NCBI RefSeq assembly: GCF_900114565.1
Contig: NZ_FOTM01000025.1
Span: 1 to 56,297 of the forward strand
Direction of reading: 5' to 3'
Length of the DNA stretch: 56,297 nucleotides
Origin: Leifsonia sp. CL147
GTDB taxonomy: Bacteria > Actinomycetota > Actinomycetes > Actinomycetales > Microbacteriaceae
Shown: positions 6,661 through 54,927 of the stretch, piece by piece
Position numbering within the stretch: the first letter of the stretch is position 1
Layout of the letters: each line of letters opens with the position of its first letter
Translations under genes and position numbers: made by a program
Notes under the pieces: model-generated
Told to the model about the DNA's origin: nothing
What the model saw: only the letters and a program-made list of their open reading frames with translations
Database searches by the model: none

Positions 6661-6857
6661 GCGCCCGCCGGGTGCCTGAGAAGGCTCGCAGATTGACCCC
6701 CGAAGGGGGGTGATTTGGCCGATTCCGGGGTGAACCCGGGGTGAAAACCGTCCGGTTGGGATGTCGCAGTCGGCAGACTCGACGGTATCCCGCCAGCAGT
6801 GCGTCCTCGCTGCACGTGCTGTCGGACCGAAACCGTTCTGCCCGAAGGACTTTCGCC

Positions 6858-9800: not shown

Positions 9801-12800
9801 TCCGTCGAGGTGGGCGCGCAGCCCTTCACCGGCGCTCCGACCACCCGGGATGCGGACGACCACGTCACGATCGTCGATCCGACGTTCACCACGAAGGTGA
9901 CCAAGACCGCGTCTCCGCAGACGCTGGTGATCCCGCAGCCGGATGTCCCCGCTTCCGCGTATCCGTCGACGACGTACACGACGACGGCGACCAACACCTC
10001 GAACAGCAGCACGTGGCAGCTGCGGCTGTCCGACCCGACGGAGTGCGCGAACGCGACCACCTCGGACCCGTGCGTGTTCGCGCCGTACGATGCGACCACC
10101 AACCCGTTCGAGCAGCTCACCCTGACGAAGATCGCCGTGGACCTGTCCCAGGCGCCGGGCGTGCAGGCGTCTCAGAGCAGTGTGTCCCTGCTGCACCGGG
10201 CTGCTGACGGCACCGAGACCACCGAGACGCTCAGCCTGGCCGCCGCGACCGCCCTGACGGCTGCCGACCTGAGCGACGTCGTCGCCGTCAGCGCACTGCT
10301 GCGCGGCACCAACGCACAGGGACCAGACGGCACGGGAGGCACGATCTCGCCGTCGCAGAAGATCACCCTGGCGCTGACCGCGCAGCTGCGCAAGACGAGC
10401 CGCACCGGGGGAGCGGCTCCGACGCCCAGCACCATCCAGAACACCGCGCACGCGACGCTGCACGACGACGTCTACCCCGGCGTCCAGGCGGCCGACACGC
10501 GCGGTGTCGCGCTCACGCTGCAGAACGGCAACCTGCAGGTCACGACGGCGAAGTCGTTCAACCCGTCGAGCACCCTGCAGTCGGCGCCCGCGGACCCGAT
10601 CCAGGTGAACCTGCGTGCGCGCTCGACCGGGACGCTGTCGCCCAAGGTGCTCGTGATCGAGGATGCGGATCCGACGTTCTGGAACGCCTTCACTCTGAAG
10701 TCCTTCACTCTGCCCAACACGCCGACCGGCGCCGACCAGGTCCAGGTGGATGCGCAGACGGGCCAGGGGCCGGCCGCCGCGTGGCAGACCGGGACGCCGG
10801 CTGCGATCGCCTCCGCCGCGCTGCCCTCCGGCGTCGCCGCGGCGGATGTGACCGGCCTGCGCTTCACCTTCTCCCGCTCCGATGGCGCCCCGTTCGCCGC
10901 CTCCAATGACGTGGACGAGGTCACCCTGAACCTCTCGCTGCGGAGCACTCTGCGCGACGGCAGCGGACCGGTGACCTCGACCGTCGTCCCACAGCCGATG
11001 CCGGGCGAGACGGCGCCGGGGACGGTGTCGGACACCGTGACGGCCGACGCGTCGTACAACGACGTGCAGGCGCAGCAGGCGAACGCCACCGCGACCTTCA
11101 CCGTCGACCCGGGCACCGCGAAGATCGCCGTGGAGAAGACCAGCCCCGGCCAGGCCGCGTCGGGACGCGAAGTGAACTGGACGCTGCGCTTCAAGAACAC
11201 CGGGACGGGAATCCTGCCGAACCCGGTGGTGACGGACACGCTGCCGGCCGACGGCTCCCTGCTGTACGTCCCGACGAACGTCCCGACGTACAGCACCTCG
11301 ACGGGAGGGACGCTCCCGACGGACGGCGCGGTCATCGCCCGCGCCTACGATCCCGTGACGGGCAGCATCCGCTTCACCTGGCCTGCCGGGTCGCAGCTGG
11401 CCCCCGGAGAGACGTACAGCATCACGATCGGCCTGCAGATCAAGCCGGGCCTCGCGCCGGCGTCGTCCGCGGTCAACACGTTCGGCGTCACGACCGACCG
11501 CCAGCTCGCGAGCAGCGACTGCACGGCGCTGAACCCGGGCAACGGCCGTGCGGTGACCTTCGCCGCGAACACCTGCTCGACCAGCAACGTGGTGACCACC
11601 CTCTCGCAGGGCTCGTTCACCGCATCGAAGGGTGTCAAGTCGCCAACCGGCCAGGCGCAGAACATCGTCAACCCGGCGCTTCCGTGCACCCCCGACAGCG
11701 AGGGCTTCTACCGGTACCCGTGCGCCGCGGTCAGCGCGATCGGCGCGACCGACGACTGGAAGCTCGACATGGTGAACGGCGGGAACGTGGCCGCCAAGAA
11801 CCTCACCGCCGTGGATGTGTTCCCCGCGCCCGGTGACACGGGTGTCGTCGACTCCTCCCCCCGCGGCTCGGTCTACACGCCGCGCTTCAACGGCGACCTC
11901 GCCTTCCAGCCGTCCGCGGACGCCGCGGGCGCCGTGATGACCTGGTTCGTGACCACCGCGGCGAAGCCGTGCGCGGCCGACATCACGCCGGGCTCCTCGT
12001 GCCCGGCCGGCTCGTGGGTGCCCTCGAGCGCGGTGGGGACCACCATCCAGGCTGCGGATGTCACCGGCGTCAAGATGGTGTTCGACTTCAGCGGAACGGC
12101 CACGGGTACCCTCGCGCCGGGCGCTGAGGTGAAGGTCACCTACACCAGCACGAACATCCCGACCACCGCCGCCGGCGACGACCGCGCGTCGGTGAGCGCT
12201 CCGGTCACGGCCGTGCGTGCGTGGAACTCGTTCGGCTTCTACCCGACCTACGTGTCGGGGTCGCAGCCGGCCGGCCCCCAGGAGCCCATCAAGGCGGGCG
12301 TCATCCTGACGGGCGGACCCCTGCAGATCACCAAGACGGTCACGGGAGCGGCGGCGCAGTACGCGCCGGCGAGCTTCCAGGCGGATGTCGTCTGCACGGT
12401 GACCGGCGTCCCGGTCGATCTGGGCGGGAACGCCTCCGTCACCCTCAGCGCCGCGAACCAGTACACGGCGCGGATCGACGGCATCCCCACCGGCGCCCAG
12501 TGCGCGGTCACCGAGCACGGGGCCGACGGCTCGTACGGTGAGTCGAGCCGCAGCGTCACGCCGGGATCCGTCACCATCGCGGCCGCCGACGCGACCGCGC
12601 CGGTGCCGGCCGGCCAGCAGGTCGCCATCGTCAACGACTACGGCGTGACCTCTCTCACCGTGACCAAGCACGTGGACACGGCGGCGACCGCGGGCACGTT
12701 CGGACCGTTCGCCGTCGGCGTCGCCTGCACGGCGCCGCTCGGCCAGAGCATCCCGCTCGCAGCCGGCGACGCCGCCTTCACCCTGCAGGACGGCGGATCG

Positions 12801-14462
12801 CACACCATCGGCGGCCTGCCGGCGCACGCGGCCTGCGTCGTGACCGAGACGGATGCGGATGGTGCAGCGGCCTCGCCGAACCAGGTGTCGTTCTCGGTCG
12901 ACGGCGCCGCGGCGACGGACGGCTCGCAGGCCACCGTGACCCTCGGTGCCGGCCCGCAGCCGACCACCGCGGAGATCGTCAACCACTACGCGGCGGGCAC
13001 TCTCGCCATCAGCAAGATCGTCGACGGCGACGCCGCGGGGAGCTTCGGCGACGGGCCCTTCACGGTGCACGTCACCTGCGTCTACGGAGGCGACCAGACG
13101 CTGTTCGACGGCGACCTGACGATCGCCGGCGGCCAGACGCTGACCGTGCCGGGCGTCTATCCGGCGGGCACCCAGTGCTCGGTGGCCGAGACCACCGACG
13201 GCGGGGCGACCGGAAGCACGGTGGACCTGCCGACGGTGACCATCCCGGGTGCGACGGACGGCAGCATCCCGAGCGTCACGGTGAGCGTGACGAACACGTT
13301 CTCGTCCGGCAGCGTCACCATCGTCAAGCAGCGCACCGGTGACGGGGTCGACCGTTACGGCTCCGGCCCGTTCACCGCCCAGCTCGTCTGCATCTGGCAG
13401 AAGGACGGCCAGACGCTCACCATCCCGCTGCCGGACGGGGGCCTCGTCACTCTGGATGCGGCGAACGGCTACACGGCGACGGTGACCGGACTCATCCAGC
13501 GCGCGCACTGCGAGGTGACGGAGACCGCCACGGGTGGGGCGACCGCCGTCGCCATCGCGCCGGACGGTGGGGTGACCGTCCCGGCCGGCGACCCGGCGCA
13601 GGTCACGATCACGAACACGTTCGACACGGGCTCGCTCGTCATCGACAAGAAGCGGATCGGCGACGGCGTCGCGAAGTTCGGAGCCGGCCCGTTCACGATG
13701 CAGGTGACCTGCAGCTACGACGTGGATGGCGTGGTCACCCCGATCGAGCTCGCCGACGGCGGCACGGTGGTCCTGTCGAAGGACAACGGCTACACCGCCA
13801 CCGTCGACGGCCTGATCGCGGGCGCCTCCTGTGCCGTCGAGGAGACGGACGCCGGGCTCGCGACGGCGACCACGATGGATCCCGCGGACGGCCGGGTGAC
13901 GATCGGCGCCGGTCAGAGCGCGACCGTCACGGTGACCAACCGCTTCGACGTGGGCCACCTGAGCATCGCGAAGACCGCGGACCGTTCGACGGCGGAGGTG
14001 GGCGACACCATCGTCTACACGATCACCGTGACCAACGACGGCCAGATCGACGCGAAGGACGTCGCCGTCACCGACCTGCTGCCCGGAGGACTCCAGCTGA
14101 TCGGCGCCCAGCCGGCGGCGACGAAGGCCGCGAACGGCGACCTGACGTGGGTCATCGCGGGCATCGCGAAGGGGGCGAAGGCCACCATCACCGTCGCCAC
14201 GAAACTGATCGCGCCGCAGGACATCACCAACCGGGCGACCCTCGGGCCGCTGTCCGGTCCCTGGGATCCCTCCACGGGCGACAGCCGTTGCGGCGACGAC
14301 GGGACCGCCTGCGCCACGGTGACCGACCCGGGCGTGCACGGCCTGGCGAGCACCGGCAGCGACATGCTCGGCTCGCTCGCCGGAGCCCTGACGGCTCTGG
14401 CGGCGCTGATCGCGGGCGCCGGCCTGATGCTGCTGCGTCGCCCGAGGCCGCGGAGGCGGTGA
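6858..14462 (+). CDS. Giant sortase-anchored surface adhesin with DUF5979 and DUF11 repeats, 2534 aa
   Basis: The frame is open from 6741, but GTG 6858 has GAAGGA eight bases upstream and gives a sensible export signal: a very basic 45-residue N-region, hydrophobic core VATGIVLALIGAVAIGA and cleavage near ANA|DD. The first roughly 1800 residues are successive Thr/Val-rich beta domains (DUF11-like, each with lysine near a KT or KS strand and NT-containing ends). Five DUF5979-type repeats of about 100 aa follow (about 1820-2365), each beginning like LTVTKHV and ending in VTNTF or similar. One canonical DUF11 domain comes next (2367-2470). The end is LASTG (2496-2500), a hydrophobic helix and RRPRPRRR, a LAxTG class-E-type sorting signal. 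It should be displayed on the wall as a long stalk, with a role in attachment or biofilm (inferred). It probably forms its own transcript. Confidence 0.9.
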   Translation: MLSRLRSLLVPSDRDGRRHRQSGPSRHRRDRDRRDRRRTLRAPASVATGIVLALIGAVAIGAPAANADDLGSGVLNLSKTASVTQVEPGQSFLYTINYGCSSTTTGCVNAVLTDPVPAPLQIVGKPTVVGAGSVTTTVTGNTVTVAFADNVPNTVPASTGLAAGTTGSVQIQVTMPSDVAKDQDGVQLTNTATLQATNATTVSSGVPVTVHVPDVIAATVSKTWTPGSTQYNPGETSQVALTVKNTSNIPATSLTIAEPADPSAATSTFEFYDFAGFGAVTFPAGADQVQVVAITAGGPVDGPVGATPQLPGGVQAADVTGLQFVFSSSTGDTIAAGGTAGSVALTLAQRAVSRTDGTALVTGGTRTNQVGASVSTPDGDGQAPPASAQQVVAPLTVSVAAGKSFQDQQIPAGQSSTATLTAKNTSTGPLTSLTVSEPGSGTFFTGKVTFGGFTSGATWPQGATSGTVHWLVNTGSAPADSTFDQNSGLPPTPALATGQFLTGFQVVYAGAIAPGASASIPFTVDTTTDAGPAGSGFVSYPNTVTVTGVNPAGTASQDAGASLDVYFPEVKLTLGKSVTPSTVIPGGTSLVQLSAQTPTGTSSVRPNTIVVTEPQDTANAPYWNAFDATGIASTAVPAGSTLTIEYTTDGTTWQTLTVVDATAGSKTYSATLDSVLPSGTTHSDLRGLRFTFADADGFGQATNVKPAITFTARSLLRDGTGPTNPGAYPTVTPYQNCAVGQASGTVAGSTTVTSQPASACATVGVQATTGGPGPLIAAKSWDGQKVVLAQSGVTTGVTLGWGSQVSGMQSMTIQDPAVPSPIAGSVFQAFDLARIDAITPTVTQGATFDPLIRWDKVSKVELFDGTTWNDITSEACASANACDGIFPGYTLTAAERASTQGVRLTVVESPNRAARIQSTGDPTAPAVGSGVASVSAGAVPGGRTIHLDLTLRNSVRGSTVTDWVTGTRTYNLAGSPGAVDNSVEVGAQPFTGAPTTRDADDHVTIVDPTFTTKVTKTASPQTLVIPQPDVPASAYPSTTYTTTATNTSNSSTWQLRLSDPTECANATTSDPCVFAPYDATTNPFEQLTLTKIAVDLSQAPGVQASQSSVSLLHRAADGTETTETLSLAAATALTAADLSDVVAVSALLRGTNAQGPDGTGGTISPSQKITLALTAQLRKTSRTGGAAPTPSTIQNTAHATLHDDVYPGVQAADTRGVALTLQNGNLQVTTAKSFNPSSTLQSAPADPIQVNLRARSTGTLSPKVLVIEDADPTFWNAFTLKSFTLPNTPTGADQVQVDAQTGQGPAAAWQTGTPAAIASAALPSGVAAADVTGLRFTFSRSDGAPFAASNDVDEVTLNLSLRSTLRDGSGPVTSTVVPQPMPGETAPGTVSDTVTADASYNDVQAQQANATATFTVDPGTAKIAVEKTSPGQAASGREVNWTLRFKNTGTGILPNPVVTDTLPADGSLLYVPTNVPTYSTSTGGTLPTDGAVIARAYDPVTGSIRFTWPAGSQLAPGETYSITIGLQIKPGLAPASSAVNTFGVTTDRQLASSDCTALNPGNGRAVTFAANTCSTSNVVTTLSQGSFTASKGVKSPTGQAQNIVNPALPCTPDSEGFYRYPCAAVSAIGATDDWKLDMVNGGNVAAKNLTAVDVFPAPGDTGVVDSSPRGSVYTPRFNGDLAFQPSADAAGAVMTWFVTTAAKPCAADITPGSSCPAGSWVPSSAVGTTIQAADVTGVKMVFDFSGTATGTLAPGAEVKVTYTSTNIPTTAAGDDRASVSAPVTAVRAWNSFGFYPTYVSGSQPAGPQEPIKAGVILTGGPLQITKTVTGAAAQYAPASFQADVVCTVTGVPVDLGGNASVTLSAANQYTARIDGIPTGAQCAVTEHGADGSYGESSRSVTPGSVTIAAADATAPVPAGQQVAIVNDYGVTSLTVTKHVDTAATAGTFGPFAVGVACTAPLGQSIPLAAGDAAFTLQDGGSHTIGGLPAHAACVVTETDADGAAASPNQVSFSVDGAAATDGSQATVTLGAGPQPTTAEIVNHYAAGTLAISKIVDGDAAGSFGDGPFTVHVTCVYGGDQTLFDGDLTIAGGQTLTVPGVYPAGTQCSVAETTDGGATGSTVDLPTVTIPGATDGSIPSVTVSVTNTFSSGSVTIVKQRTGDGVDRYGSGPFTAQLVCIWQKDGQTLTIPLPDGGLVTLDAANGYTATVTGLIQRAHCEVTETATGGATAVAIAPDGGVTVPAGDPAQVTITNTFDTGSLVIDKKRIGDGVAKFGAGPFTMQVTCSYDVDGVVTPIELADGGTVVLSKDNGYTATVDGLIAGASCAVEETDAGLATATTMDPADGRVTIGAGQSATVTVTNRFDVGHLSIAKTADRSTAEVGDTIVYTITVTNDGQIDAKDVAVTDLLPGGLQLIGAQPAATKAANGDLTWVIAGIAKGAKATITVATKLIAPQDITNRATLGPLSGPWDPSTGDSRCGDDGTACATVTDPGVHGLASTGSDMLGSLAGALTALAALIAGAGLMLLRRPRPRRR

Positions 14463-14463
14463 G

Positions 14464-14507
14464 CCGCGGCGGAGGACCGGGGCTGCGGCCCCGGTGAGCC
14501 GCCGCGG
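14464..14507. terminator. Strong stem-loop after the adhesin gene
   Basis: CCGCGGCGG (14464-14472) pairs with CCGCCGCGG (14499-14507), and inside it ACCGGGGC (14476-14483) pairs with GCCCCGGT (14488-14495). It begins two bases after the adhesin stop codon and lies between convergent genes. It has no U-tract, as usual in GC-rich actinobacteria. Confidence 0.75.
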
Positions 14508-14510
14508 AGC

Positions 14511-14540
14511 GCGGGGTCGGGGGCGGGGCCGCGACCCCGC
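14511..14540. terminator. Second stem-loop between convergent genes
   Basis: GCGGGGTCG (14511-14519) pairs perfectly with CGACCCCGC (14532-14540) across a 12-base GC-rich loop. It follows the first hairpin directly and precedes the minus-strand stop at 14552, so the two hairpins together may stop transcription from both sides. Confidence 0.65.
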
Positions 14541-14551
14541 CCGCTCCGGGA

Positions 14552-16741
14552 TCAGGGCAGCGTGACCGGAGCGTCGCTCAGGACGCCGTGGCGGGTGCCG
14601 GTTGCCGTCGCGAACAGCGCGACCACACCGATCCGATGGGTCCCGGAGTCCGTCCACGCGTAATCGCTGGAGGCGTCGCCTGCCGCATCCAGGATCAGGT
14701 CCGGAAGCTGCGGCGCCGGCGTGCCGTCGGCCCAGACCGCCAGCGTGGTTCCCGGCGTGCCGTGCACGGCCATGTGCACCCCGCCGGGCACCACGGTCGC
14801 CGTGACGGCCGGGACGGTCACCGTTCCGGTCACCGGTACGGACTGCGCCGACACGTTCCCGAGCGGGTCGGTCTGCCGCGCGGTGAGCGAGTAGGCGGAG
14901 GGGATCGCGATGAGTTCCGGCGAGCTCCACTGGCCCTGAGCGTCCGCGGTGACCGTTGCGATGCCCGTGCCGTGATCGAAGAGCTCGACGGTGGCCCCGG
15001 GCTCGGCCGTACCGGTCAGGATGGGCGCGAGCAGCGCGGCGGTCGCTCCCGTTCCCGTGTCCACCGCGGCGATGACGGGAGGCTCCGCCGTGCGGTCCAC
15101 CCCGATGCGGACGGTGGCGCCCGCCGAGGTCCCGCTGCTGGTGGTCTGCGTCGCGCTCAGCACCCACGCACCGTCGGTCAGAGCGGCGATGTTCGCCTCC
15201 ACGGCCCACGTGCCGTCCGCGGCGACGGTCGCCGTCGCGAGAGGCGCCGGAGCGGAGAGGGCGGTCGCGCTCGTCGCACTGAGTGCGGTTCCGGCGGGCG
15301 AGGCGGTGATGGCGACTGTCGCACCGGGCTGCCCGGTTCCCGCGAGCGGGAGGGTCGTCGCGGCCGTCTGCCAGCCGGCCGGGATCACCGTGGTGATGGC
15401 CGGTGCGGCGGGCGGCGCGGCCGGCGTGACCGGAGGCGTCGTCGGCGCCGTCGGCGGGGTGACGGGCGGAATCGTCGCCTGGATCACGGGCGAGGGCGCG
15501 GGGGTCTGCGCGAGCGGACCAGGAGCCGCCGGGCTAGGATCGGTCGGGCCCGGAACCGTCGGCCCGGGAACGGCCGGAACCACCGGAGGGGCCGTCGGAA
15601 CCGCAGGAGCGGTGGACGCCCCCGAGGACGTGCCCGGCGCATCCTGAGCCGACGCCGGCGGAGCGCCGTCGGACCGGCTCGACGCCACGTCATGTCCTGG
15701 CCCGCCCAGCAACTGCGGCCCGAGGACGATCGCCCCTGCGACCCCGGCGGCGACCGCCAGGCCGGCGACCGTGGCGCCGACGCCGATCGCCGCGCGACTC
15801 GCACCCGTACCGGTGCGCCCGAGCGACCGGGTCATCCCGATCGTGGATGCTGCGGCCGGCTGGCCGCCGGTCGCAGCAGCGCCCGCACCGCCTCCCAGGC
15901 CCGCCGCCGCGGCGGTCACCGCCGCTGCGCGCGCGATCTGCGCGGCGTACGCGGTCGCTCCGCCGATCCCGAGCAGCAGCGGCAACAGGATGAGGGCGAG
16001 CCGCGACCCGACGTTCTGCGCCTCCGCGGCGACGATCGAGCAGCGCGTGCACTCGGCGAGGTGGCGCTCGAGGCGCGCGGTCTCCCGCTTGCCGAGGCCT
16101 CCGCGTGCGTACGCGCCCATCCGCTCGGTGGTCCAGCGGCAGTCGGAGCCCTCGGCGCTCGCGTTGATATGCGCCTGGATCCAGGCCTGGCGGAGTCCCT
16201 CGCGGGCGCGGTAGGCGAGCGCCGCCGTGCCGTTCGCCGTGAGGCCGAGCAGCGGTGCGACGGCGGCCGGCGTCATCCGCTCGACCTCGCTGTACCAGAG
16301 CACCTCCTGCCAGCGAGCGGGCAGCGACCGGAAGGCCTGTGCGGTCAGGGAGCGGTCCAGCGCCTCCATGCTCGCCGCCTCCGTCGACGTCGGGTCCGGA
16401 ATCGTGGTCGCATCCTCGATGGGTGCCTCGCGTCGGCCGCCGCCCCAGCCCGCGGCGACATTGCGGATGGTCGTGAACAGGTAGGGCCGGAAGCCGGTGT
16501 GCGGCCCGCGTCCGTCGCGGACGGCCTTCAGGATGAGGGCGTACGCCTCGGCGACGACGTCGTCCGGGTCCTCGTCGGTGAAGGACCGGGCGACCGTCCG
16601 CCCTGCCGCAGCGTGGCGGCGCCACAGCTCCGCGAAGGCCTCCGTGTCGCCTGCGCGCGCGGACTCGACGAGGTCGGTGTCCGACCGCTCGGGCGCGGCG
16701 TCCATCCACTCGTCCTCGCGCAGGCCGTCGTCGCTCCTCAT
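14552..16741 (-). CDS. Single-chain ECF sigma factor fused to zinc-finger anti-sigma, membrane helix and Ig-like ectodomain, 729 aa
   Basis: Residues 21-100 resemble sigma-70 region 2 (DLVESARAGDTEAFAELW, DVVAEAYALILKAVR, FRPYLFTTIRN). Residues 128-188 resemble region 4 (LPARWQEVLWYSEVERMTPAAVAPLLG). An anti-sigma zinc-finger motif follows, H227-x3-C231-x2-C234, then hydrophobic segments at about 247-270 and 316-340, a Pro/Thr/Ala stalk (350-440) and two or three Ig-like beta domains with GTGQPGATV and GTAEPGATV motifs. The sigma part should be cytoplasmic and the Ig part outside. Release of the sigma part would need proteolysis or a conformational change. Fused-extension ECF sigma factors are known in actinobacteria; the Ig-like ectodomain is the notable part. 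An alternative start at 16705 has a better GAGGA site. Confidence 0.85.
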   Translation of the reverse strand: MRSDDGLREDEWMDAAPERSDTDLVESARAGDTEAFAELWRRHAAAGRTVARSFTDEDPDDVVAEAYALILKAVRDGRGPHTGFRPYLFTTIRNVAAGWGGGRREAPIEDATTIPDPTSTEAASMEALDRSLTAQAFRSLPARWQEVLWYSEVERMTPAAVAPLLGLTANGTAALAYRAREGLRQAWIQAHINASAEGSDCRWTTERMGAYARGGLGKRETARLERHLAECTRCSIVAAEAQNVGSRLALILLPLLLGIGGATAYAAQIARAAAVTAAAAGLGGGAGAAATGGQPAAASTIGMTRSLGRTGTGASRAAIGVGATVAGLAVAAGVAGAIVLGPQLLGGPGHDVASSRSDGAPPASAQDAPGTSSGASTAPAVPTAPPVVPAVPGPTVPGPTDPSPAAPGPLAQTPAPSPVIQATIPPVTPPTAPTTPPVTPAAPPAAPAITTVIPAGWQTAATTLPLAGTGQPGATVAITASPAGTALSATSATALSAPAPLATATVAADGTWAVEANIAALTDGAWVLSATQTTSSGTSAGATVRIGVDRTAEPPVIAAVDTGTGATAALLAPILTGTAEPGATVELFDHGTGIATVTADAQGQWSSPELIAIPSAYSLTARQTDPLGNVSAQSVPVTGTVTVPAVTATVVPGGVHMAVHGTPGTTLAVWADGTPAPQLPDLILDAAGDASSDYAWTDSGTHRIGVVALFATATGTRHGVLSDAPVTLP

Positions 16742-44654: not shown

Positions 44655-47636
44655 TTGCGTCAGGCGCCCGCGCTCGCAAGATCCACAAGACCGCTCCAGG
44701 TTCGAAGCAACAAAGCATCGCTCGGTTCACTTCGCAGAAGCCGAACTGTACTTGTAGTGGCCGCTTTCTCGCTCTGCGTTGCGGCTCAGGCAACCGCGCT
44801 GGCACCGGCTGGTGCGGCCGGACCGCTAGTACAAGCGGATATCTCGACTGTTGCAGATTCGGCGACTGCTGACACCGAGGCCAACGCCTCCGTGATCGCG
44901 GTCAAGTTTCAGCATGACGTCACGGTCACATCCGAAACGTCGCCGACGCTGTTGACCACGGCTCTGGCTGTCGGCGGGTTCAAGCAAGAGGCGGACCAGG
45001 TCCCTTCGCGCGTGCTTCAGAACGGCGCATGGACGCCCGAGGACACGACTCTGGGTTCCGCTGTCGATGGATGGTTCAGCCCGCGCGCGGCGGCTGCATC
45101 AGTGCGTTTCTCCGCTGGCGGTACCACGCAGATGGCCCAGGTCCAAGTGCCGAGCGGGGACTGGGTAACCGAGTCGTGGCCCTACGGAGCCCTTCCGACG
45201 CCCCAAATCAGCGGATCCAGCGTGACCTATCCGAATGTCTTCCCCGACGTGGATCTTGAACTCACGGCGACGGCGCCGGGTATGTCAGAGGTCCTGGTGG
45301 TGAAGACACCGGCCGGCGCCGCGGACCCCCAACTCGCGAACGTACAGTTCGGCATCGCTGGCGCGACACTGACGGTTGCGAATTCCACCACGAAGGCCCT
45401 TCTGGCGACTACGCCTGGTGGGGCCAAGGCAGTCTCGGCCGCGCCACTGTGGTGGGATTCCGCGGGAGCCAAGGCGGGCCCGTTGGGGGCTGGTGGCGGT
45501 GATGCTCGGGCGATGGCCTATTCGAATACCGCGACATCAGTGGGTTTGAAGGTCGACTCGGTCACTGCAACGCCTAATCTCCAGTATCCGGTCTACATCG
45601 ATCCCGATTGGAGCAGCAACTCCGCATATCTGCAGGCCGATTGGTACGACGACCGTGCATACCCGAACCAGTCGTATCTGGACCCGAGTTCGGACAGCGT
45701 CGGATACGGCATCTCCGGTGGCATCGGTTACCTGTCGCGGGCGTTCTTCCAGTTCCAGACGAGCCAACTCGCCGGCAAGTACATCTCCAGTTCTCAATTC
45801 CGCGCCAACCAGACGTATTCAAACAGTTGCGATACCACCACAACGCAGTTGTGGAACTACGGTCCCTCCACGAGCCCTGGGTTCACCTGGAACCAGGAGC
45901 CGGCAGCATGGAACACCCTGCTCGACCAGAACGTGGAGGAGAACGGCGGACCGTGCGCGCCAGCCGCCAACTGGGTGGGCCTGAACGCCACCAGCGCCGT
46001 CACCGCTGCGGCAGCCGGCGGTCAGGGAAGTATTCAGCTCGGTCTGCGGTCGGCGAACGAGGGCAACAGCCTGACGCGGAAGCATTACGACTGGAACGCC
46101 CAGCTGATCACCATCTATGACACGCCGCCCAATGCGCCCTCGAACCTGAAGTTCGGGTCGGCGATCGGCAGCAAAGGCTGTGGGACGCAGACCAGCCCGA
46201 CGCCGTTGAACCCGACAGTGGCCGGGGTGAACCTGCCGATGCAGGCCGTGATCTCAGACGCCGACAGCGGCCAGACGGTCCAAGGGGTCTTCTACATCGA
46301 CGACATGAGCGTGAGTCCTATCGTAGGGACTGCGTCATACACATCTTCGCTCCTGAATCAGGGTTCGACGTTCGTGTGGAATTACACGGCGCCGACGACA
46401 GGCTCGAGCGCGTGGGTCAACGGGCACACCTATAAGTGGTACGTCGTGTCCCGCGATGACACAGGAATGGCCGGACCGCACTCGATCGACTGCTTCTTCA
46501 AGGTGTACACGACAGGTCCGTCGGCGGCGAACATCTCTGTCACGCCCACTGCCGGTCAAACTTTGGGGGACGTTGCGACCGCAGTGATCACGGATCCCAC
46601 CGATCAGGCGTCCATCCAAGGCTATGAATACTGGGTTACTCCGGGAGGCACCGTCTCGGCGGGCGACCCGCCCGTGGCCGAAACGGTCAACGCGCCCTCG
46701 CCGTGCACGGGCGGCCTGACGGTAACACCGGGCGGCAATCTTGTGGGCTTTGCCTGCCCGTCCGGGACGAACGGCCAGGCCACGATCAGCATCGGGATGC
46801 CGGACCTCACCTCGGTTTTGAATGTTGTGGCATATGACGCGGCAGGTAACGTGTCGCCGCGCATTTCGGGTTCCGATCGTGGTGCATATGCGGCCTTTTC
46901 CCTGAAGCCTGCGGCGAACCTCTCGTTTGAGACGGGCGGTCACCAATGGACGACCGACTTGGTCAGCGGGAGTCCGATACCCGATTCGAATACGACGTCA
47001 AATGCGACCAATCTTAACCTCGCTGGAGACGTGTCGGTCGCGAGCGGAAACTCACCCGTCTATTCGGGTTCGGGTACGTCGCTCGCTTTCACAGGTACCA
47101 ACGGCCAGGCGCCAACAGAAGCGAGCCCGGTTACCGGCGGCTCGCTGCTCAACTCGAGCGCGTCCTTCAGCGCGAGCGTTTGGATGGAGCCGACAACCGC
47201 GGGAGAGAGTGCCACAGCACTGTCCCTGGTCGGTCCGCAGGGGTACGGGTTCTCGCTAGAGCTCAGCCAAGGCCACCCGGTGTTCTGCATGCGCAGTCAG
47301 GTCGCGGCCACCCCGGCGCACGGTGCTTGCCTCACCGACACCGTCGACACGCCCGCGGTAAACACCTGGACGTGGGTGACCGGGGTTTATGACGCCAAGA
47401 ACCATCTGATGCGCATCCTGTTGAACGGCTCGACCCAAAGCACGGCTGTCATGATCTGGGTTGATGACACGACTGATCCGGGAGCGTCCGGACCGCTCGC
47501 GGTCGGGTCCGACGTCACTTCAACCGGTATCACAACCCAGGAGTGGGTCGGGCAGCTCGGTAGCCCCGCGGTTGTACCCGGAGTTATTGACGGAAGCCAA
47601 TTGGGTCAGCTCATGAGCGACTCTGACCCTAGCTAG
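44655..47636 (+). CDS. Secreted DNRLRE/LamG-domain protein, RHS-locus partner, 993 aa
   Basis: TTG 44655 follows GGAG. The basic N-terminus and hydrophobic segment (VLVVAAFSLCVAAQATALAP) form a Sec signal, with cleavage near residue 54. Residues about 100-300 are a beta domain. DNRLRE-like sequence follows at 310-490 (VYIDPDWSSNSAYLQADWYDD..., LSRAFFQFQTSQLAGKYI), then two Ig-like/fibronectin-like domains. A LamG-like lectin fold occupies about 790-990 (SFSASVWMEPTTAGESATALSLVG, WTWVTGVYDAKNHLMRILLNG). The gene ends 44 bases before the RHS gene. In actinobacteria such proteins precede RHS toxins and may help surface attachment or delivery; this pairing is from family knowledge. It has no sorting signal. 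Confidence 0.85.
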   Translation: MRQAPALARSTRPLQVRSNKASLGSLRRSRTVLVVAAFSLCVAAQATALAPAGAAGPLVQADISTVADSATADTEANASVIAVKFQHDVTVTSETSPTLLTTALAVGGFKQEADQVPSRVLQNGAWTPEDTTLGSAVDGWFSPRAAAASVRFSAGGTTQMAQVQVPSGDWVTESWPYGALPTPQISGSSVTYPNVFPDVDLELTATAPGMSEVLVVKTPAGAADPQLANVQFGIAGATLTVANSTTKALLATTPGGAKAVSAAPLWWDSAGAKAGPLGAGGGDARAMAYSNTATSVGLKVDSVTATPNLQYPVYIDPDWSSNSAYLQADWYDDRAYPNQSYLDPSSDSVGYGISGGIGYLSRAFFQFQTSQLAGKYISSSQFRANQTYSNSCDTTTTQLWNYGPSTSPGFTWNQEPAAWNTLLDQNVEENGGPCAPAANWVGLNATSAVTAAAAGGQGSIQLGLRSANEGNSLTRKHYDWNAQLITIYDTPPNAPSNLKFGSAIGSKGCGTQTSPTPLNPTVAGVNLPMQAVISDADSGQTVQGVFYIDDMSVSPIVGTASYTSSLLNQGSTFVWNYTAPTTGSSAWVNGHTYKWYVVSRDDTGMAGPHSIDCFFKVYTTGPSAANISVTPTAGQTLGDVATAVITDPTDQASIQGYEYWVTPGGTVSAGDPPVAETVNAPSPCTGGLTVTPGGNLVGFACPSGTNGQATISIGMPDLTSVLNVVAYDAAGNVSPRISGSDRGAYAAFSLKPAANLSFETGGHQWTTDLVSGSPIPDSNTTSNATNLNLAGDVSVASGNSPVYSGSGTSLAFTGTNGQAPTEASPVTGGSLLNSSASFSASVWMEPTTAGESATALSLVGPQGYGFSLELSQGHPVFCMRSQVAATPAHGACLTDTVDTPAVNTWTWVTGVYDAKNHLMRILLNGSTQSTAVMIWVDDTTDPGASGPLAVGSDVTSTGITTQEWVGQLGSPAVVPGVIDGSQLGQLMSDSDPS

Positions 47637-47680
47637 CGCACCATTCCCCGCATCGAACAGCGTCAAGAACAGAGGGCAGC

Positions 47681-50600
47681 ATGCGAGCACGTCGAGTTGG
47701 GCCGGCCGGTTTTCTTAAGCGTGGAGTAGGCGCGGCAGCGATCGCAGTGCTCGTGAGTGCGCTGATCACCGCTACCCCTGCGTTTGCCACAACGGAGGCA
47801 CCCAAGCCTGTGCTGGGCAAACCCGTTCCTGGTCATCACGCCAACAGTGTCGCTTCCGCGACCGCCGCGCCTTCTTCGAACAGTGTTAAGCCCGACCTGA
47901 AGAGCCTGCCGAAGGCGGGCACGTACACGGTTGCAACAAAGCCAGATGGACGCCGAACGGCGATGAAGTTCGCGGGGAAGCGGTTTGGTGATCTGCTCGG
48001 GGCGTGGCAGGCGGTCGGCGCTACAGGAATTGAACTTGCACCAGCCGACGTCGGCTCACACTCCGGCCCTTCGACCAGCGTGAAATCCGTGACGGCCCAA
48101 GTTCTTTCCGCGTCCCAGGCAAAGAAGTTCGGGCTCTCCGGGCTGGTGATCCAGCTCCAGCGCTCGGACTCGGCTCGCTCCCAAGCGACGACCGCCATCC
48201 GAATTCCTGCAACGCTTCTCAACTCACTGTTTGGCGCAGACTACGCCTCCCGCATTCACTGGACCGAGCTGCCCGCGACCAAAGCGAGCTCCTCACCAAA
48301 AACCAGCGCACTTTCCTCCGTGGCCGACCCGTCGAGCAAATCGGTCGTAACCGCGGCCCAGGTCTCCGCAACGCCCATGCTTCTCGCGGCGACCGCCGCT
48401 CCCTCATCGACTGCGGGGACCGGCACTTTTACCGCCACCTCACTGAAGCCCTCCGACACCTGGGACGTCAGCGCCCAAACGGGCGACTTCTCTTGGACCT
48501 ACCCACTGCGGGTGCCGCCGACTGCTGCCGGGCCCGCTCCCGATCTGTCGCTGGCGTACGACTCGCAGTCGATCGATGGCGAGACAGCCTCCACCAACAA
48601 TCAGCCCTCATCGGTTGGAGATGGCTGGCATATCACCGGATCCGGATTCATCGAACGCACGTATGTTCCTTGCGCATTAGACGATGGCTCCTCGGGTCCC
48701 GTCACCACCTCCGGCGACCTGTGCTGGAAGACCGACAACGCTACCCTGGACCTCAACGGTCACACCGGCCAGCTCGTCCAAATCGGTACGAGCGGTAACT
48801 GGCGGCTGCTGCACGACGACGGCACGCGCATTCAGCACACGAGCGGCGCGTCCTGTGGGAGCAACGGAACCTACGACAGCGACTGCTGGACCGTCACCAC
48901 AGCAGACGGCACCCGCTACCTCTTCGGCGCAAACCCGTCCTCGAACTCCACCTGGACGGTCCCGGTGTTCGGGAACGACCCGGGGGAGCCGTGCCACGCC
49001 GCGACGTTCGCCGCGTCATCGTGCAGTCAAGGATGGCGCTGGAATCTCGACGAGGTCATCGACACAAACGGGAACGCCGAAGCCTTCACCTACAATGCGC
49101 AGACCAACGAGTACGCGCTAAATGGCACCACGGCGACACCGTATGTCCGCGGCGGCGAACTCGCATCTATCCAATACGGTGCGCCCAGCTCGAGCATCCA
49201 CACCGCAAACACACCCTCCCAAATCGTGTCCTTCGGGTACGACAGCTACGGCCGATGCAGCGACGCGAGTCACGCGAATTGCACCGCAGAGCCAGTTTCA
49301 GGAAGTGCCGTCACCCCAGCTGTCCCCGCGAACTACCCGGATATTCCGTACGACCAGAACTGCACCACCGGAACGTGCTCAACGCAGCTCTCGCCCACCT
49401 TCTGGTCCAATTCGATGCTCGACACGATCACCACCTCCGTGTGGTCCAGCACGGCCTACTCCACCGTCGACACCTGGACGCTTGGCCACTCGTTCCCGGA
49501 CCCCGGAGACAGCAGCAGTGCTGCCCTCTGGCTCACATCAATCACGCACACCGGGCACGTAGGCTCTACCACCGGCCTGAGCGAACCGCCCACAACCTTC
49601 ACCGGACGCACGCTTCAGAACCGCGTCTACGCCATTGACGGCGAACTGCCCCTGAACCGGTACCGGATCTCCGGGATCACCTCCGCTCTCGGCGCACAGA
49701 CAACGGTGGGCTACTCATCACCACAGTGCACCGCCGCGCAGGTTTCCGGGATCGAGGCGAACCCGTGGTCGAACAACGAACTGTGCTTCCCTGAATGGTG
49801 GACCCCGCAGGGCGGCACCCAGCGAGAGGACCTCTTCAACAAGTACGTCATCAATAGCGTCGTCAGCAACCCGACAACAGGGGGAAGCAACGACGTCATC
49901 CAACAGTCGACCTACACTTACGGCACCCCGGGCTGGCGATACGACACCTCACCGTTGATCCCGGACGCCCAGCGCACCTGGTCAGTCTTCGCCGGCTTCA
50001 ACACCGTCAACGTCCTCACCGGTGACCCGACGATTCCAGCCCAGGAACACGAGAACGACTACGTGTACTACCAGGGCCTCGACCAAGACCGGGCCAACGC
50101 GTCGGGTGGAACGAAGACCGTTGACGTCACCGGCACGACGATCCTGGATTCGCTGTGGTTCGCCGGCAGGGTCTACTCACAAAAGACCCTCAACGGCGCT
50201 GCAGGGTCCCAGCTCTCGCAAGCGATCCACACGCCATGGGTGTCCGCTGCCACCGCGACCGACTCCAGCGGGACTGCCTACCTGACCGGTGACGCGCAGA
50301 CGGTCGTAACCACACCGAACTCCACCGGCACCGCCACCACGACCACGAACACAACGTTCGACCCCACCTATGGATTCGTCACGCAGGTGGACACTGAGCA
50401 CTCCGACGGCGCCACAAACACCTGCCAAACAATCACGGCGACCGCCCCGAATTTGACCGCCTGGATCATCGGCGCGACCGCCGAGAGCGTCACGGTCGGC
50501 CAGAAGTGCGGAACCAGTCCCACCTTCCCTGCCGACGCGATCTCAGACACCCGAACGTTCTACGACGGCAGCAGCACCCTCGGTGCGGCTCCCACAATCG

Positions 50601-53600
50601 GGAACGTGACCTCAACACAGGTGGCAACCAGCTACACCAACGGTCAACCGCAGTTCACGACCGCATCCACGACAACCGTGGACAGCCTCGGACGCCCGCT
50701 CGCGCGAACGGACGTCCTCGGCCACACGACCACCACGACTTACACGCCCACAGCGGGCGCTGCCCACGCCGCAGCCAACAGCTCACAGTCGGTCGTGAAC
50801 AACTCCGCACCGGTTTCCTGGACCACGTCGGTTCAGTTCAACCCGGCACTCGGCCTGGAGACCTCCGCCACAGATCAGAACGGACTGGTCACCAGCGCCA
50901 GCTACGACGCGCTCGGCCGGCGAACCGGGGTCTGGCTACCCGGGAACGCCCAAAGCACGAACCCCACCAACCCGAACACGGCATACACTTACGCCCTTTC
51001 CCAGACCGCCGCATCATCGGTCGAGACCACGACGTGGACTTCGAACTCGACCCTGAGCAGTTACACCCTGTATGACGGACTCGGCCGAGCAGTCCAGACA
51101 CAATCCCTCTCACCTGCCGGTGGCACCATCGTGACCGACACCGGCTACGACGCCAACGGTCAAGCCAACTTCACCCAAGGCCCCTATTGGACGACCTCCG
51201 TGACCCCGTCGAGCACGGTCTTCATCGCCAACAACCCACAGAACATCCCAACCTCGCTCGTCACGACCTTCGACGGCGCCGGCCGGACAACCGCTTCGAT
51301 CACCAACAGCTACGGCACGGAACAGTTCCGCACCAGCTACGTCTACCCGTTCACCAACGAAACCGACACCAACCCCCCGACCGGCGGGACACCCACGAGC
51401 GTCTTCACGAACTCTGCGGGACAAAAGACGAAGCTCGTCCAATATCAGGCCGCGTCTGTATCGACCACGGCCCCGACCGACACCACGGCGTACACCTACG
51501 ACGCGCGCGGAAACATGTCCTCCATGACCGACCAGGCCGGTAATGCGTGGAGCTGGACATACGACGTCCTCAACCACCAAACCTCGGCCACCGACCCGGA
51601 CACCGGGACGACCTCAACCAGCTATGACCTAGCGGGCAACCTACTCACCAGCACCGATGCTCGCGGGCAACAACTGTCGTACACCTATGACCCGCTTAAC
51701 CGGAAACTCGCCGAATACGCTGGCGGTACTACGGGGAGCCTCCTTGCAGCGTGGACGTACGACACCGTCGCCAACGCAACCGGTCAACTCGCCTCTTCCA
51801 CCAGCTACCAGGGATCCGTGCCCGGAACTCCCGGCGCCGCCTACAAGGCGACGGTCAACGGGTACGACAAGGCGTACAAGCCCACCGGAACCACACTGAG
51901 CATTCCCGCCGGAGCTCCCGCATTCGCCGGCACAAGCTACACCACATCGAACATTTACAACCGCGACGAAAGCCTCGCCGCGGAGATCCTGCCCGCCGAA
52001 GGCGGCCTCGCCTCCGAAACTCTCCACTTCACCTACAACACCACCGCTCAACTCAGCGGGCTGCACGGCTCAACCTCCTACGGCGTCGTCTCATTCACCG
52101 GGATCGGGCAAACAGCGCAGATCCAGAAGGGAACCAGCGTTCTCGACACGACAAGCTTCGGCTACGACGCGGCCACTGGAGCGGTCACAGGAATCCAGGA
52201 AACCGAGTACAACGGCACCGCATACTCCACCCCAGCCACCCTCACGTACGGCCGCGACCACAGCGGAAATGTCACCAGCCTGAAAAACGCAGGGATCTCC
52301 GCCACTGACACCCAATGCTTCAACTACGACTACCTGAAAAACCTCACCCAAGCCTGGACGCCCACCGACGGCAACTGCACAACCGCAGCATCCGCAAGCA
52401 ACATCGGGGGGCCCGCTCCTTACTGGGAGAGCTTCAATGTCGATGACGCGACCGGCAACCGGACCCAAGAAGTCCAGCACGGCACCTCGGCCAGTGCGCC
52501 ATCGACGACGAACACATACTCGTACCCGGCAGCCGGCGCAGCCAAACCACACGCCATCACGACAGTAGCGGCCACCGGTGGGACCACTTCGACATCCAGC
52601 TACAGCTACGACGCAGCCGGTAACACTGCAACGCGCCCCGGGCAGACCCTCACGTTCGATGCAGCGGGCAAACTCGCCTCAGACAATGTCTCATCGCACA
52701 CTCAATCGAACATCTACGACCCATCCGGGAACCTCCTGCTTCAAACAGATCCAACCGCGGGAAGCACCCTCTTCGTCGGGGATACCCAACTCCACGTCAC
52801 ACCCGGGACGACAACCGCCTCCGCAGTACGTGACTACAGCATCAGCGGCCAGCTGGTTGCCGAACGAACAACCCAGGCTGGTGTCACTGGGTCCGTTTTG
52901 AACTTCGTCGGAACCGACGCCAACGGAACCCCGTACCTCGAGATCAACAACACAACAGCGGCCACGACCGAGCGGTATTTCGACCCATACGGAAACGCCC
53001 GCGGTACGTCAGCCAGCTGGTCAAGCACCAACACCTACCTCAACGCGCCACAATCGACCACAACGGGTCTAAGCATCGTTGGAGCCCGCGCGTACGACCC
53101 CACCATCGGGAAATTCCTCTCCGTCGATAGCGTCCTGGCTCCGGACAATCCGATGCAGAACAATGGCTACACCTACGCCCTGAATAACCCGATTACCCAA
53201 GCCGATCCCTCCGGCAACGAACCCACGAACCCCGACCCTAGCTGCAATACCGCCGCGTGCCGCAACGCCTACTACGGCGCACCAGCCAACGGCGACGGAA
53301 CCGACATCTCCAACGCTCCACCTCCCGCGGGTAACGGCGGATCCGGTCCGAGCCAACACCAATCTTCCGACAGCTCGGGCGACGCCAATCTCTTGCACGC
53401 TCCCACGAACGCTAGCCAGTTCTTCAGCTTCTATACGTGGTCGCCTTTGCCTGACAAGTTCAAGAACGGCCCTGTCGATTGGACCGGACTGGGGGAAGCC
53501 GCTGGTACGGCGGTCGTGGTGGGTGGAATAGCACTCACGGTGGTCGGGTGTATTGCGGCGACCGAGGGGGTCTGCGGCGCATTCCTTGTCGAAGAAGGCG

Positions 53601-53977
53601 GCGCAGTCACCGAAATCTCGACTGAGCAGTCGGTAGCTGAAATCAGCTCGATACTCCAGGAACACACCGACGCCGCCGTGGCCAGATTTGACGCCGGGGA
53701 CATTGCGTTGTCTGCCAAGCAGGAGCTGGCTGCCGGCAAGAACGGCAATCTATACGAAATGTTCAGAGGGCAGGTCCTCGACAGTGCGATCAAGAACTCT
53801 GTCGAGGGCGACTCTCGTCTGAGCCTTTGGATATCCAAATCTGGCGAATACGGCCCCGACTTTCACGACGTGAATACAAATACTTGGTGGGACATCACCA
53901 CTCCCGGTAGGTTTCAAGCGCACTTGAACCAGTACAGCGACCCGTTCGGTCAGGGAATAGGCTTGTTCACGAAATGA
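47681..53977 (+). CDS. RHS-repeat polymorphic toxin with Sec signal and C-terminal toxin domain, 2098 aa
   Basis: ATG 47681 begins a Sec signal (FLKRGVGAAAIAVLVSALITATPAFA). An SpvB-like/N-terminal RHS shell lies at about 245-800, followed by many YD repeats (YDALGRRTGVW, YDPLNRKLAEY, YDLAGNLLTS). The RHS core GARAYDPTIGKFLSVD...NNPITQADPSG ends at about residue 1844; in this family it processes off the toxin tip. The variable tail (1845-2098) has a Gly/Ser linker, a hydrophobic helix at about 1942-1973 and a final 95-aa domain. That domain has E2026 in NLYEMFRGQ, D2060 in YGPDFHDV and D2071 in WWDITTPGRF. This layout fits a divergent PD-(D/E)xK nuclease fold, with Thr where Lys is usual. No T6SS or T7SS gene is near. 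Confidence 0.88.
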   Translation: MRARRVGPAGFLKRGVGAAAIAVLVSALITATPAFATTEAPKPVLGKPVPGHHANSVASATAAPSSNSVKPDLKSLPKAGTYTVATKPDGRRTAMKFAGKRFGDLLGAWQAVGATGIELAPADVGSHSGPSTSVKSVTAQVLSASQAKKFGLSGLVIQLQRSDSARSQATTAIRIPATLLNSLFGADYASRIHWTELPATKASSSPKTSALSSVADPSSKSVVTAAQVSATPMLLAATAAPSSTAGTGTFTATSLKPSDTWDVSAQTGDFSWTYPLRVPPTAAGPAPDLSLAYDSQSIDGETASTNNQPSSVGDGWHITGSGFIERTYVPCALDDGSSGPVTTSGDLCWKTDNATLDLNGHTGQLVQIGTSGNWRLLHDDGTRIQHTSGASCGSNGTYDSDCWTVTTADGTRYLFGANPSSNSTWTVPVFGNDPGEPCHAATFAASSCSQGWRWNLDEVIDTNGNAEAFTYNAQTNEYALNGTTATPYVRGGELASIQYGAPSSSIHTANTPSQIVSFGYDSYGRCSDASHANCTAEPVSGSAVTPAVPANYPDIPYDQNCTTGTCSTQLSPTFWSNSMLDTITTSVWSSTAYSTVDTWTLGHSFPDPGDSSSAALWLTSITHTGHVGSTTGLSEPPTTFTGRTLQNRVYAIDGELPLNRYRISGITSALGAQTTVGYSSPQCTAAQVSGIEANPWSNNELCFPEWWTPQGGTQREDLFNKYVINSVVSNPTTGGSNDVIQQSTYTYGTPGWRYDTSPLIPDAQRTWSVFAGFNTVNVLTGDPTIPAQEHENDYVYYQGLDQDRANASGGTKTVDVTGTTILDSLWFAGRVYSQKTLNGAAGSQLSQAIHTPWVSAATATDSSGTAYLTGDAQTVVTTPNSTGTATTTTNTTFDPTYGFVTQVDTEHSDGATNTCQTITATAPNLTAWIIGATAESVTVGQKCGTSPTFPADAISDTRTFYDGSSTLGAAPTIGNVTSTQVATSYTNGQPQFTTASTTTVDSLGRPLARTDVLGHTTTTTYTPTAGAAHAAANSSQSVVNNSAPVSWTTSVQFNPALGLETSATDQNGLVTSASYDALGRRTGVWLPGNAQSTNPTNPNTAYTYALSQTAASSVETTTWTSNSTLSSYTLYDGLGRAVQTQSLSPAGGTIVTDTGYDANGQANFTQGPYWTTSVTPSSTVFIANNPQNIPTSLVTTFDGAGRTTASITNSYGTEQFRTSYVYPFTNETDTNPPTGGTPTSVFTNSAGQKTKLVQYQAASVSTTAPTDTTAYTYDARGNMSSMTDQAGNAWSWTYDVLNHQTSATDPDTGTTSTSYDLAGNLLTSTDARGQQLSYTYDPLNRKLAEYAGGTTGSLLAAWTYDTVANATGQLASSTSYQGSVPGTPGAAYKATVNGYDKAYKPTGTTLSIPAGAPAFAGTSYTTSNIYNRDESLAAEILPAEGGLASETLHFTYNTTAQLSGLHGSTSYGVVSFTGIGQTAQIQKGTSVLDTTSFGYDAATGAVTGIQETEYNGTAYSTPATLTYGRDHSGNVTSLKNAGISATDTQCFNYDYLKNLTQAWTPTDGNCTTAASASNIGGPAPYWESFNVDDATGNRTQEVQHGTSASAPSTTNTYSYPAAGAAKPHAITTVAATGGTTSTSSYSYDAAGNTATRPGQTLTFDAAGKLASDNVSSHTQSNIYDPSGNLLLQTDPTAGSTLFVGDTQLHVTPGTTTASAVRDYSISGQLVAERTTQAGVTGSVLNFVGTDANGTPYLEINNTTAATTERYFDPYGNARGTSASWSSTNTYLNAPQSTTTGLSIVGARAYDPTIGKFLSVDSVLAPDNPMQNNGYTYALNNPITQADPSGNEPTNPDPSCNTAACRNAYYGAPANGDGTDISNAPPPAGNGGSGPSQHQSSDSSGDANLLHAPTNASQFFSFYTWSPLPDKFKNGPVDWTGLGEAAGTAVVVGGIALTVVGCIAATEGVCGAFLVEEGGAVTEISTEQSVAEISSILQEHTDAAVARFDAGDIALSAKQELAAGKNGNLYEMFRGQVLDSAIKNSVEGDSRLSLWISKSGEYGPDFHDVNTNTWWDITTPGRFQAHLNQYSDPFGQGIGLFTK

Positions 53978-54927
53978 CGATGGTCGAGCTGCGGAAACGT
54001 TGGGATACTGCCGAAGGTCGAGCGCTTGCCGCTGCGGTATCCGCGTGGCTGTATGGGCGCGCGCGTCGCCCGCGAAATCTGGACTCGATCGATGGGCGCC
54101 ACGATCTGCGCGGGCTCGCGATGCACCATCTGCAAAGCCAGCGACCCGCGACCATCTACGGGACCGTGGAGAACGCGCGTTGGAAAGACTTGGACCTCCG
54201 TGGCGCGAGCTTGGACCACATGCGGTGGTCGTCGGTGGAAGTCGGGGGATGCCTTTTCGACGGTGCTTCGCTCGATGGCTTGCGTGTGTGGGAATCGTCG
54301 ATCGAACACACGTCCTTCACGCGTGCGAAGCTAGAGGGGGCGCTCATCGGCGCGGGCGAGAAATACCCACGCAACCAGTGGCGACACGTCAGTTTTCAGC
54401 GCGCGAAGATGCGTGACGCCATCATTCACAATGCCGACCTCGACGATGTGGATTTCAGTAACGCCGATCTGAAGGGCGCTTCGTTTCGCCATTCGAGGCT
54501 CGAAGGAATCCGTTTCGCCGGTCCGCTACGGGATGTGCTGTTCGAGAATAGAGACTTCGTCACCGTGACCAGCGTCGGGCATCCGATGCGCTCGGTGGAT
54601 TTCAGCGACTCCGAGTTTTACGATGTCGAGTTCCGCGGTTCACATTTCGATTCCGTCACGTTCCCCACATCCCAAGAGCACCTGCTTATCCCTCGCTTTC
54701 CGTCGGCTGCCCGGTGGGTCCTGCACCGGCTCGAGGGTGACGACTCCGAGTGGTCACGAATGCTCACGGCGATGCTCAGCGGTGGGCTGGTCCGTCTCAG
54801 CGCGGAGGATTCCACCGGCTTCTTTATCAGGGACGACTTCGTTCGCTGGGAAGGCGAAGGGTTCGCCGACTTCGTATTCGATCTGCTCCGCAGTGCCTCT
54901 CTCGCGATAGCTGGCGAAGCTCCTTGA
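53974..54927 (+). CDS. Pentapeptide-repeat protein, predicted immunity protein, 317 aa
   Basis: ATG 53974 overlaps the toxin stop (ATGA), the classical toxin-immunity junction. Residues about 65-230 consist of A(D/N)LxG-type five-residue repeats: DLDLRGASLDHMRWSSVEVGG, FDGASLDGLRVWESSIEHTSFTRAKLEGA, then NADLDDVDFSNADLKGASFRHSRLEGIRF and SVDFSDSEFYDVEFRGSHFDSVTF. This is a right-handed quadrilateral beta-helix, which in MfpA/Qnr proteins mimics B-DNA. The last 80 residues are a helical cap with W and F residues. No signal peptide is present, so it acts in the cytosol, as expected for protection from an incoming toxin. Immunity is inferred from position and family; direct binding to the toxin is untested. 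Confidence 0.8.
   Translation: MTMVELRKRWDTAEGRALAAAVSAWLYGRARRPRNLDSIDGRHDLRGLAMHHLQSQRPATIYGTVENARWKDLDLRGASLDHMRWSSVEVGGCLFDGASLDGLRVWESSIEHTSFTRAKLEGALIGAGEKYPRNQWRHVSFQRAKMRDAIIHNADLDDVDFSNADLKGASFRHSRLEGIRFAGPLRDVLFENRDFVTVTSVGHPMRSVDFSDSEFYDVEFRGSHFDSVTFPTSQEHLLIPRFPSAARWVLHRLEGDDSEWSRMLTAMLSGGLVRLSAEDSTGFFIRDDFVRWEGEGFADFVFDLLRSASLAIAGEAP

Follow-up and report, generated by a model that had tools for sequence, protein, structure and literature searches.

In polymorphic toxins, RHS and other vehicles can end in a restriction-endonuclease-type fold; such C-terminal domains form the Tox-REase families 1-10 (PMC3482391), one of which, Tox-REase-7 (GxxxE, IxD, ExK), shows a Gly-led helix, an Asp and an acidic-x-residue layout. 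The best-known pentapeptide-repeat proteins shield gyrase (PMC7897471), and QnrB, MfpA, McbG and AlbG combine the repeats with a protective role. Here we analyse a stretch of 56,297 nucleotides (nt) from Leifsonia sp. CL147 (NZ_FOTM01000025.1, positions 1-56,297; the window), in which the locus 44655..54927 encodes a DNRLRE-domain protein, an RHS/YD-repeat protein with a toxin tip of ~116 amino acids (aa) at its C-terminus, and a pentapeptide-repeat protein whose reading frame begins on the last 4 nt of the RHS gene (ATGA). The tip resembles the Tox-REase families in predicted fold and position and Tox-REase-7 in the layout just given, whereas it differs from all of them in having Thr for Lys, in lacking a Pfam profile match and in being paired with a pentapeptide immunity candidate; the word pentapeptide is absent from the first 300,000 of the 357,715 characters of PMC3482391. 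The pentapeptide protein, in turn, is longer than QnrB, MfpA, McbG and AlbG, has non-repeat N- and C-terminal parts and is tied to a toxin gene. A partial literature search, with few subscription papers and no bioRxiv preprints in its reach, turned up no report of an RHS or nuclease tip that has a pentapeptide protein as its immunity partner.

We propose that this is a polymorphic-toxin locus in which the pentapeptide protein is the cognate immunity protein and binds the nuclease-fold tip directly, a reading to which we assign a probability of about 0.7. The exported RHS shell, with its DNRLRE partner, would carry the restriction-endonuclease-type tip, which would attack nucleic acid in a neighbouring cell. 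The pentapeptide protein made from the overlapping gene would protect the producer and its kin, presumably by binding the tip in the cytoplasm in a shape-specific manner, probably over the active-site face.

Recurrent pairing of the tip with a pentapeptide gene

Relatives of the tip were sought by tblastn, by a hand-written motif pattern and by profile searches, each using the tip only and thus blind to neighbouring genes. The first relative, on pRLN1 of Rhizobium leguminosarum (tblastn, 32.6% identity, E 2e-8), ends a Tox-PAAR-like protein (PF13665, E 4.7e-26) and has a pentapeptide gene directly behind it. Over species genomes the motif pattern returned 11 loci, and seven of these carry a tip like the window's, from R. 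leguminosarum once more, two other Rhizobiales, Armatimonadetes, Flavobacteriaceae, Bacillota and Rariglobus. A pentapeptide gene is next in all seven (that of L010 is cut by the locus end). Profile searches added two genomes, G647 and G1075, each again with a pentapeptide neighbour. The G1075 tip is more distant and has Glu for Asp in the motif (E-x-T), and its neighbour carries the same conserved antidote block.

A pentapeptide gene directly follows 9/9 window-kind tips (window, G647, L010, L011, which equals L003, L012, L013, L016, L017 and L018), the kinds having been sorted by tail and sequence in output that also displayed the neighbours. It also follows the G1075 tip, which scores 22 bits, below the sister tips described next (37-42 bits), and the division into kinds is provisional. 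Counted undivided, the pairing holds for 10 of 16 tips, namely the nine, G1075, five sister tips and one from Escherichia coli (L004). At the nine loci beyond the window the pentapeptide gene lies on the same strand at gaps of -10 to +144 nt, and all ten neighbours match Pentapeptide_4 (E <=0.001; G1075's under the curated cut-off). Vehicles vary: the tip is carried by RHS proteins in the window, G647 and G1075 (in L016 by eye only) and by the Tox-PAAR-like protein in R. leguminosarum. Because the gene accompanies the same kind of tip in distant bacteria and behind differing vehicles, its product is most likely the antidote, and the preliminary description, which had read the overlapping protein as a cognate antidote, is borne out to that extent at the level of sequence. 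Chance adjacency was rejected, since PF00805 occurs in only six open reading frames (ORFs) of the own genome (eight matches).

The five sister tips (L005, L008, L009, L014 and L015) have longer tails and come from Actinobacillus (twice), Janthinobacterium, Neisseria and Sulfurovum; those of L008 and L014 are identical. None of the five is followed by a pentapeptide gene, and in four the next protein is one of 142-163 aa starting MGYH; for the three of them that were scanned, Pfam gave nothing above cut-off. Ntox10 (PF15520) matches the stretch just before the tip in the four sister proteins scanned, reaching 29.7 bits in L005 (cut-off 26.8) and staying under the cut-off in L015 (25.1), L008 (19.4) and L009 (18.5). 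The match is confined to the opening 82-104 positions of the 193 in the model and lies upstream of the motif, and the window has none. The E. coli tip (L004:2890-4141) is a distant Rhs tip relative (hhalign 95%). Of 5426 complete E. coli genomes, 158 have both this tip and its downstream gene, and one more has only the end of that gene. We do not class its neighbour as a pentapeptide protein: it gave no Pfam match, it shows no clear 5-residue periodicity (z 1.0) and hhalign relates it to the antidotes at 4.9%. A further row, G669 (E 0.002), was dropped as chance, since it overlies histidine-biosynthesis genes (by eye) and contains an internal stop.

The tip is rare. Among 396 genomes of the phylum it was found only in the own genome; the class (394 genomes) gave the own genome, G647 and one weak row, the order (372 genomes) the own genome, G647 and G1075, and the genus of G647 (60 genomes) G647 alone. 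No useful tip relative came from genome contigs (searched with a single tip), viral contigs (two tips and the motif pattern) or phages. Among plasmids, the L016 tip led to R. leguminosarum again only, and the L018 antidote and the G1075 tip to nothing useful.

Predicted fold and motif of the tip

The AlphaFold2 model of the tip has a predicted local distance difference test score (pLDDT) of 95.6 and a predicted template modelling score of 0.87. Its elements follow in the order helix 40-60, a two-residue strand at 68-69, strands 79-81 and 86-91, helix 96-107 and strand 109-114, which is the order of the alpha-beta-beta-beta-alpha-beta core in PD-(D/E)XK nucleases. The top rows of VIA-align for the model are nucleases of the restriction-endonuclease fold, at weak Z (<=5.5). 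The model thus supports a divergent restriction-endonuclease-type fold with a weak structural match, in agreement with the divergent restriction-type nuclease anticipated from the letters. EcoRV, EcoRII, PspGI and Cas4-type nucleases share 6-14% identity with the tip, which differs from them in having no motif Lys; EcoRV is roughly twice as large as the tip.

The D...D-x-T motif set of the preliminary description is also conserved: the tip reads PD-x10-(D/E)-x-T, with Thr at the usual Lys position of PD-(D/E)XK. In the 13-row alignment every tip has D78 and T91, and at position 89 Asp stands in 12 and Glu in one. Two positions past this second acid, where the canonical Lys would be expected, all 13 tips have Thr and none has Lys; no search looked specifically for relatives with the Lys. 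Conservation of the Thr and of a His eight residues past the motif was partly built in, since the search pattern required D, T-T, A-H and Y but left D78 free, yet both residues are also present in the tips found without it (window, G647 and G1075). With Thr instead of Lys, we file the tip as a fold relative and not as a canonical PD-(D/E)XK member.

At the level of sequence libraries the family is uncatalogued in Pfam, NCBIfam and the PDB. Among 11 tips no relevant Pfam match was found, the only one being PF08515 in a single tip at E 0.16; the Tox-REase profiles, which the preliminary description had named among others, gave nothing in these 11. The window and R. leguminosarum tips had no NCBIfam match, and the PDB, searched by sequence and by profile, returned no tip match.

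Replacement of the Lys raises the question of whether the tip keeps a nuclease fold without being a nuclease, binding nucleic acid or catalysing other chemistry instead. Thr in 13/13 aligned tips fits this reading, as does the acidity of the window tip (isoelectric point, pI, 4.8; net charge -6), although eight other tips (one partial) are basic at pI 9.4-11.6. It is set against the retained PD and (D/E) and the conserved His, which together look like an active site under selection, and against the presence of the Thr and His in the three tips found without the pattern. We consider a non-nuclease tip doubtful, and infer nuclease activity, with nucleic acid as its target.

The antidote family and its possible modes of action

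The window pentapeptide protein scores 54.9 bits against PF00805 (cut-off 20.2) and has a lag-5 periodicity of z 3.9. In alignments the antidotes share a non-repeat C-terminal part, and past the repeats they carry a block F-[ST]-G-x-[LIV] followed by [FW] and later F-x-x-[AS]; the window reads F-A-G. An antidote profile run over 296 genomes of the class matched 22 of them at E <=1e-12. Scores of at least 333 bits were confined to the window and G647, both of which are in the profile; G468 reached 101.6 bits, and the rest stayed at or below 67.5, mostly over the repeats. G468 and G500 have the antidote block and no tip within the stretch examined. In R. sophoriradicis (L006:4938-5871) an 87%-identical antidote, annotated in two pieces, lies behind a PAAR gene with no tip in 10.9 kb. 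These three look like orphan antidotes. Orphan antidotes are common in toxin-immunity loci.

A variant block form, R-N-x-F/V-x-G-N-D-F, occurs in L034, L036 and L060:1786-2535, of which two are tipless in the examined stretch and one follows the tip of G1075. The clade of antidotes may act on further tips as well.

Antidotes and tips diverge in step. Over eight pairs their divergences correlate at r 0.91, a value reached by 4 of 5040 permutations, and without one of the two Rhizobium pairs at r 0.78 (20 of 5040); the calculation covers all pairs but L010, whose antidote is cut, and G1075, and takes no account of host relatedness. Identity between antidote groups is 16-38%. Divergence this fast alongside the tips is what would be expected of a tip partner and not of a partner of a conserved host enzyme, and it argues against a protective role at the target of the toxin, where the pentapeptide protein would shield, for instance, a topoisomerase in the way that McbG and AlbG shield gyrase. 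Poison-specific protection of gyrase by pentapeptide proteins is known (PMC7897471) and gives this idea a precedent, yet the window protein stays at or below 37.5 bits to any Qnr or MfpA model of NCBIfam, where cut-offs are at least 240 (37.5 against 460, 35.5 against 240 and 22.9 against 360 bits). We regard target protection as very unlikely.

The preliminary description had further suggested that the antidote mimics B-DNA and fills the DNA-binding face of the DNase tip. Several observations are compatible with this: the repeats themselves, whose best match among solved sequences is QnrB1 (E 4.2e-10, at repeat level), the restriction-endonuclease-type fold of the tip, the mimicry idea described for MfpA and relatives in PMC7897471, and the occurrence of two fairly acidic antidotes (G647, net -15; window, net -7) and of eight basic tips. 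Mimicry, however, predicts an acidic antidote facing a basic tip. The window pair is acid on acid (antidote pI 5.96), and the eight full-length antidotes, computed with G1075 left out, range from pI 4.9 to 8.1 and from net -15 to +2, so that some are neutral. The conserved blocks of the antidotes lie at the end of and past the plain repeats, and G-segment mimicry fails to explain protection by QnrB1 (PMC7897471). Overall charge is a weak test of mimicry, and local surface charge may differ. We therefore hold DNA mimicry to be disfavoured and unlikely; it is not supported so far.

The preferred reading, direct binding of the tip by a cognate immunity protein, can be extended to a wider and distinctly tentative proposal. 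A PD-(D/E)-x-T...H superfamily of nuclease toxins, in which Thr or His replaces the catalytic Lys, would be checked by a cleft-fitting pentapeptide clade that serves as a general immunity fold. We consider this extension possible and on balance improbable.

Vehicle, locus layout and wider meaning

The features expected of a polymorphic toxin are present in the locus: RHS repeats with a core domain, a variable C-terminal tip and an immunity-type gene directly downstream. From its sequence the RHS protein would be a polymorphic toxin of the RHS/YD type, its toxicity and neutralisation being putative. The tip is a separate module. A paralogous RHS protein of the own genome (contig C20) matches the window protein over residues 2-1897 at 52% identity, and an RHS protein of genome G779 does so over residues 11-1898 at 51.5%; both matches end there. 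The tip of the C20 protein is a Tox-REase-7 domain (PF15649, E 1.6e-13), and the RHS gene there overlaps by 4 nt a downstream gene whose product is HEAT-like (PF13646, E 5.9e-5, 23.7 bits, under the cut-off of 27.7); the G779 copy has again a different end. It follows that the tip and its downstream gene are the exchangeable part. DNRLRE homologues adjoin both RHS genes (41% and 36% identity) despite the other tips, which places the DNRLRE protein with the vehicle. The C20 locus is thus like the window's in vehicle, DNRLRE partner and 4-nt overlap, and differs in its catalogued tip and its HEAT-like downstream protein. This second RHS/DNRLRE locus of the own genome corresponds to L055 (G000:C20:86000-100000) and L029.

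The same comparison bears on the idea that the pentapeptide protein assists delivery instead of giving immunity, in the manner of TagB/TvpB of the type VI secretion system or of pentapeptide proteins fused to DUF2169. Pentapeptide proteins do occur in type VI secretion clusters (PMC11883445, PMC13373197 and PMC3942780), and the R. leguminosarum tip is carried by a Tox-PAAR-like effector. The same antidote family, however, stands behind RHS tips as well (window, G647 and G1075), and the window's RHS vehicle has other downstream genes where it has other ends. The pentapeptide gene tracks the tip and not the vehicle, which weakens the accessory role to the point that we consider it highly improbable.

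The layout is given in Table 1. All three ORFs of the preliminary description, including the overlap of the last two, were recovered. Its DNRLRE/LamG partner stood in part, since the DNRLRE domain was confirmed whereas LamG was not: this protein matched no Pfam family at all up to E 1, and the likeness is by eye only. An apparent Sec signal peptide at the RHS N-terminus was likewise read by eye only. Elsewhere in the window (6741-15209) two very long ORFs overlap on opposite strands, encoding 2573 aa (+) and 2777 aa (-).

Table 1. Features of the locus at 44655..54927 in the window
Feature	Coordinates	Strand	Evidence
DNRLRE-domain protein, 993 aa	44655..47636	+	TTG start; NCBIfam NF033679, E 7.3e-11, residues 329-473
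RHS/YD-repeat protein, 2098 aa	47681..53977	+	PF05593, E 2.8e-12; TIGR01643; TIGR03696, E 1.1e-13
RHS-associated core domain, residues 1767-1845, close to vehicle end	52979..53215	+	TIGR03696, E 1.1e-13
Toxin tip, RHS residues 1983-2098 (~116 aa), predicted restriction-endonuclease-type fold, uncatalogued family	53627..53974	+	AlphaFold2 model, VIA-align
PD-x10-D-x-T motif: D2060, D2071, T2073 (tip D78, D89, T91)	53858..53899	+	13-row alignment
Conserved H2081 (tip H99), eight residues past motif	53921-53923	+	13-row alignment
Pentapeptide-repeat protein, 317 aa, putative immunity	53974..54927	+	PF00805, E 6e-15; PF13599; PF13576

We conclude that the toxin-immunity-type module at this locus is real and combines an uncatalogued tip of predicted nuclease fold with an unusual type of antidote. 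The tip would name a toxin family absent from the catalogues, and its Lys-to-Thr change poses a clean question of catalysis. To our knowledge, no role has been assigned to the majority of pentapeptide-repeat proteins; a pentapeptide clade tied to one toxin domain across several phyla would, if true, provide a concrete and testable one.

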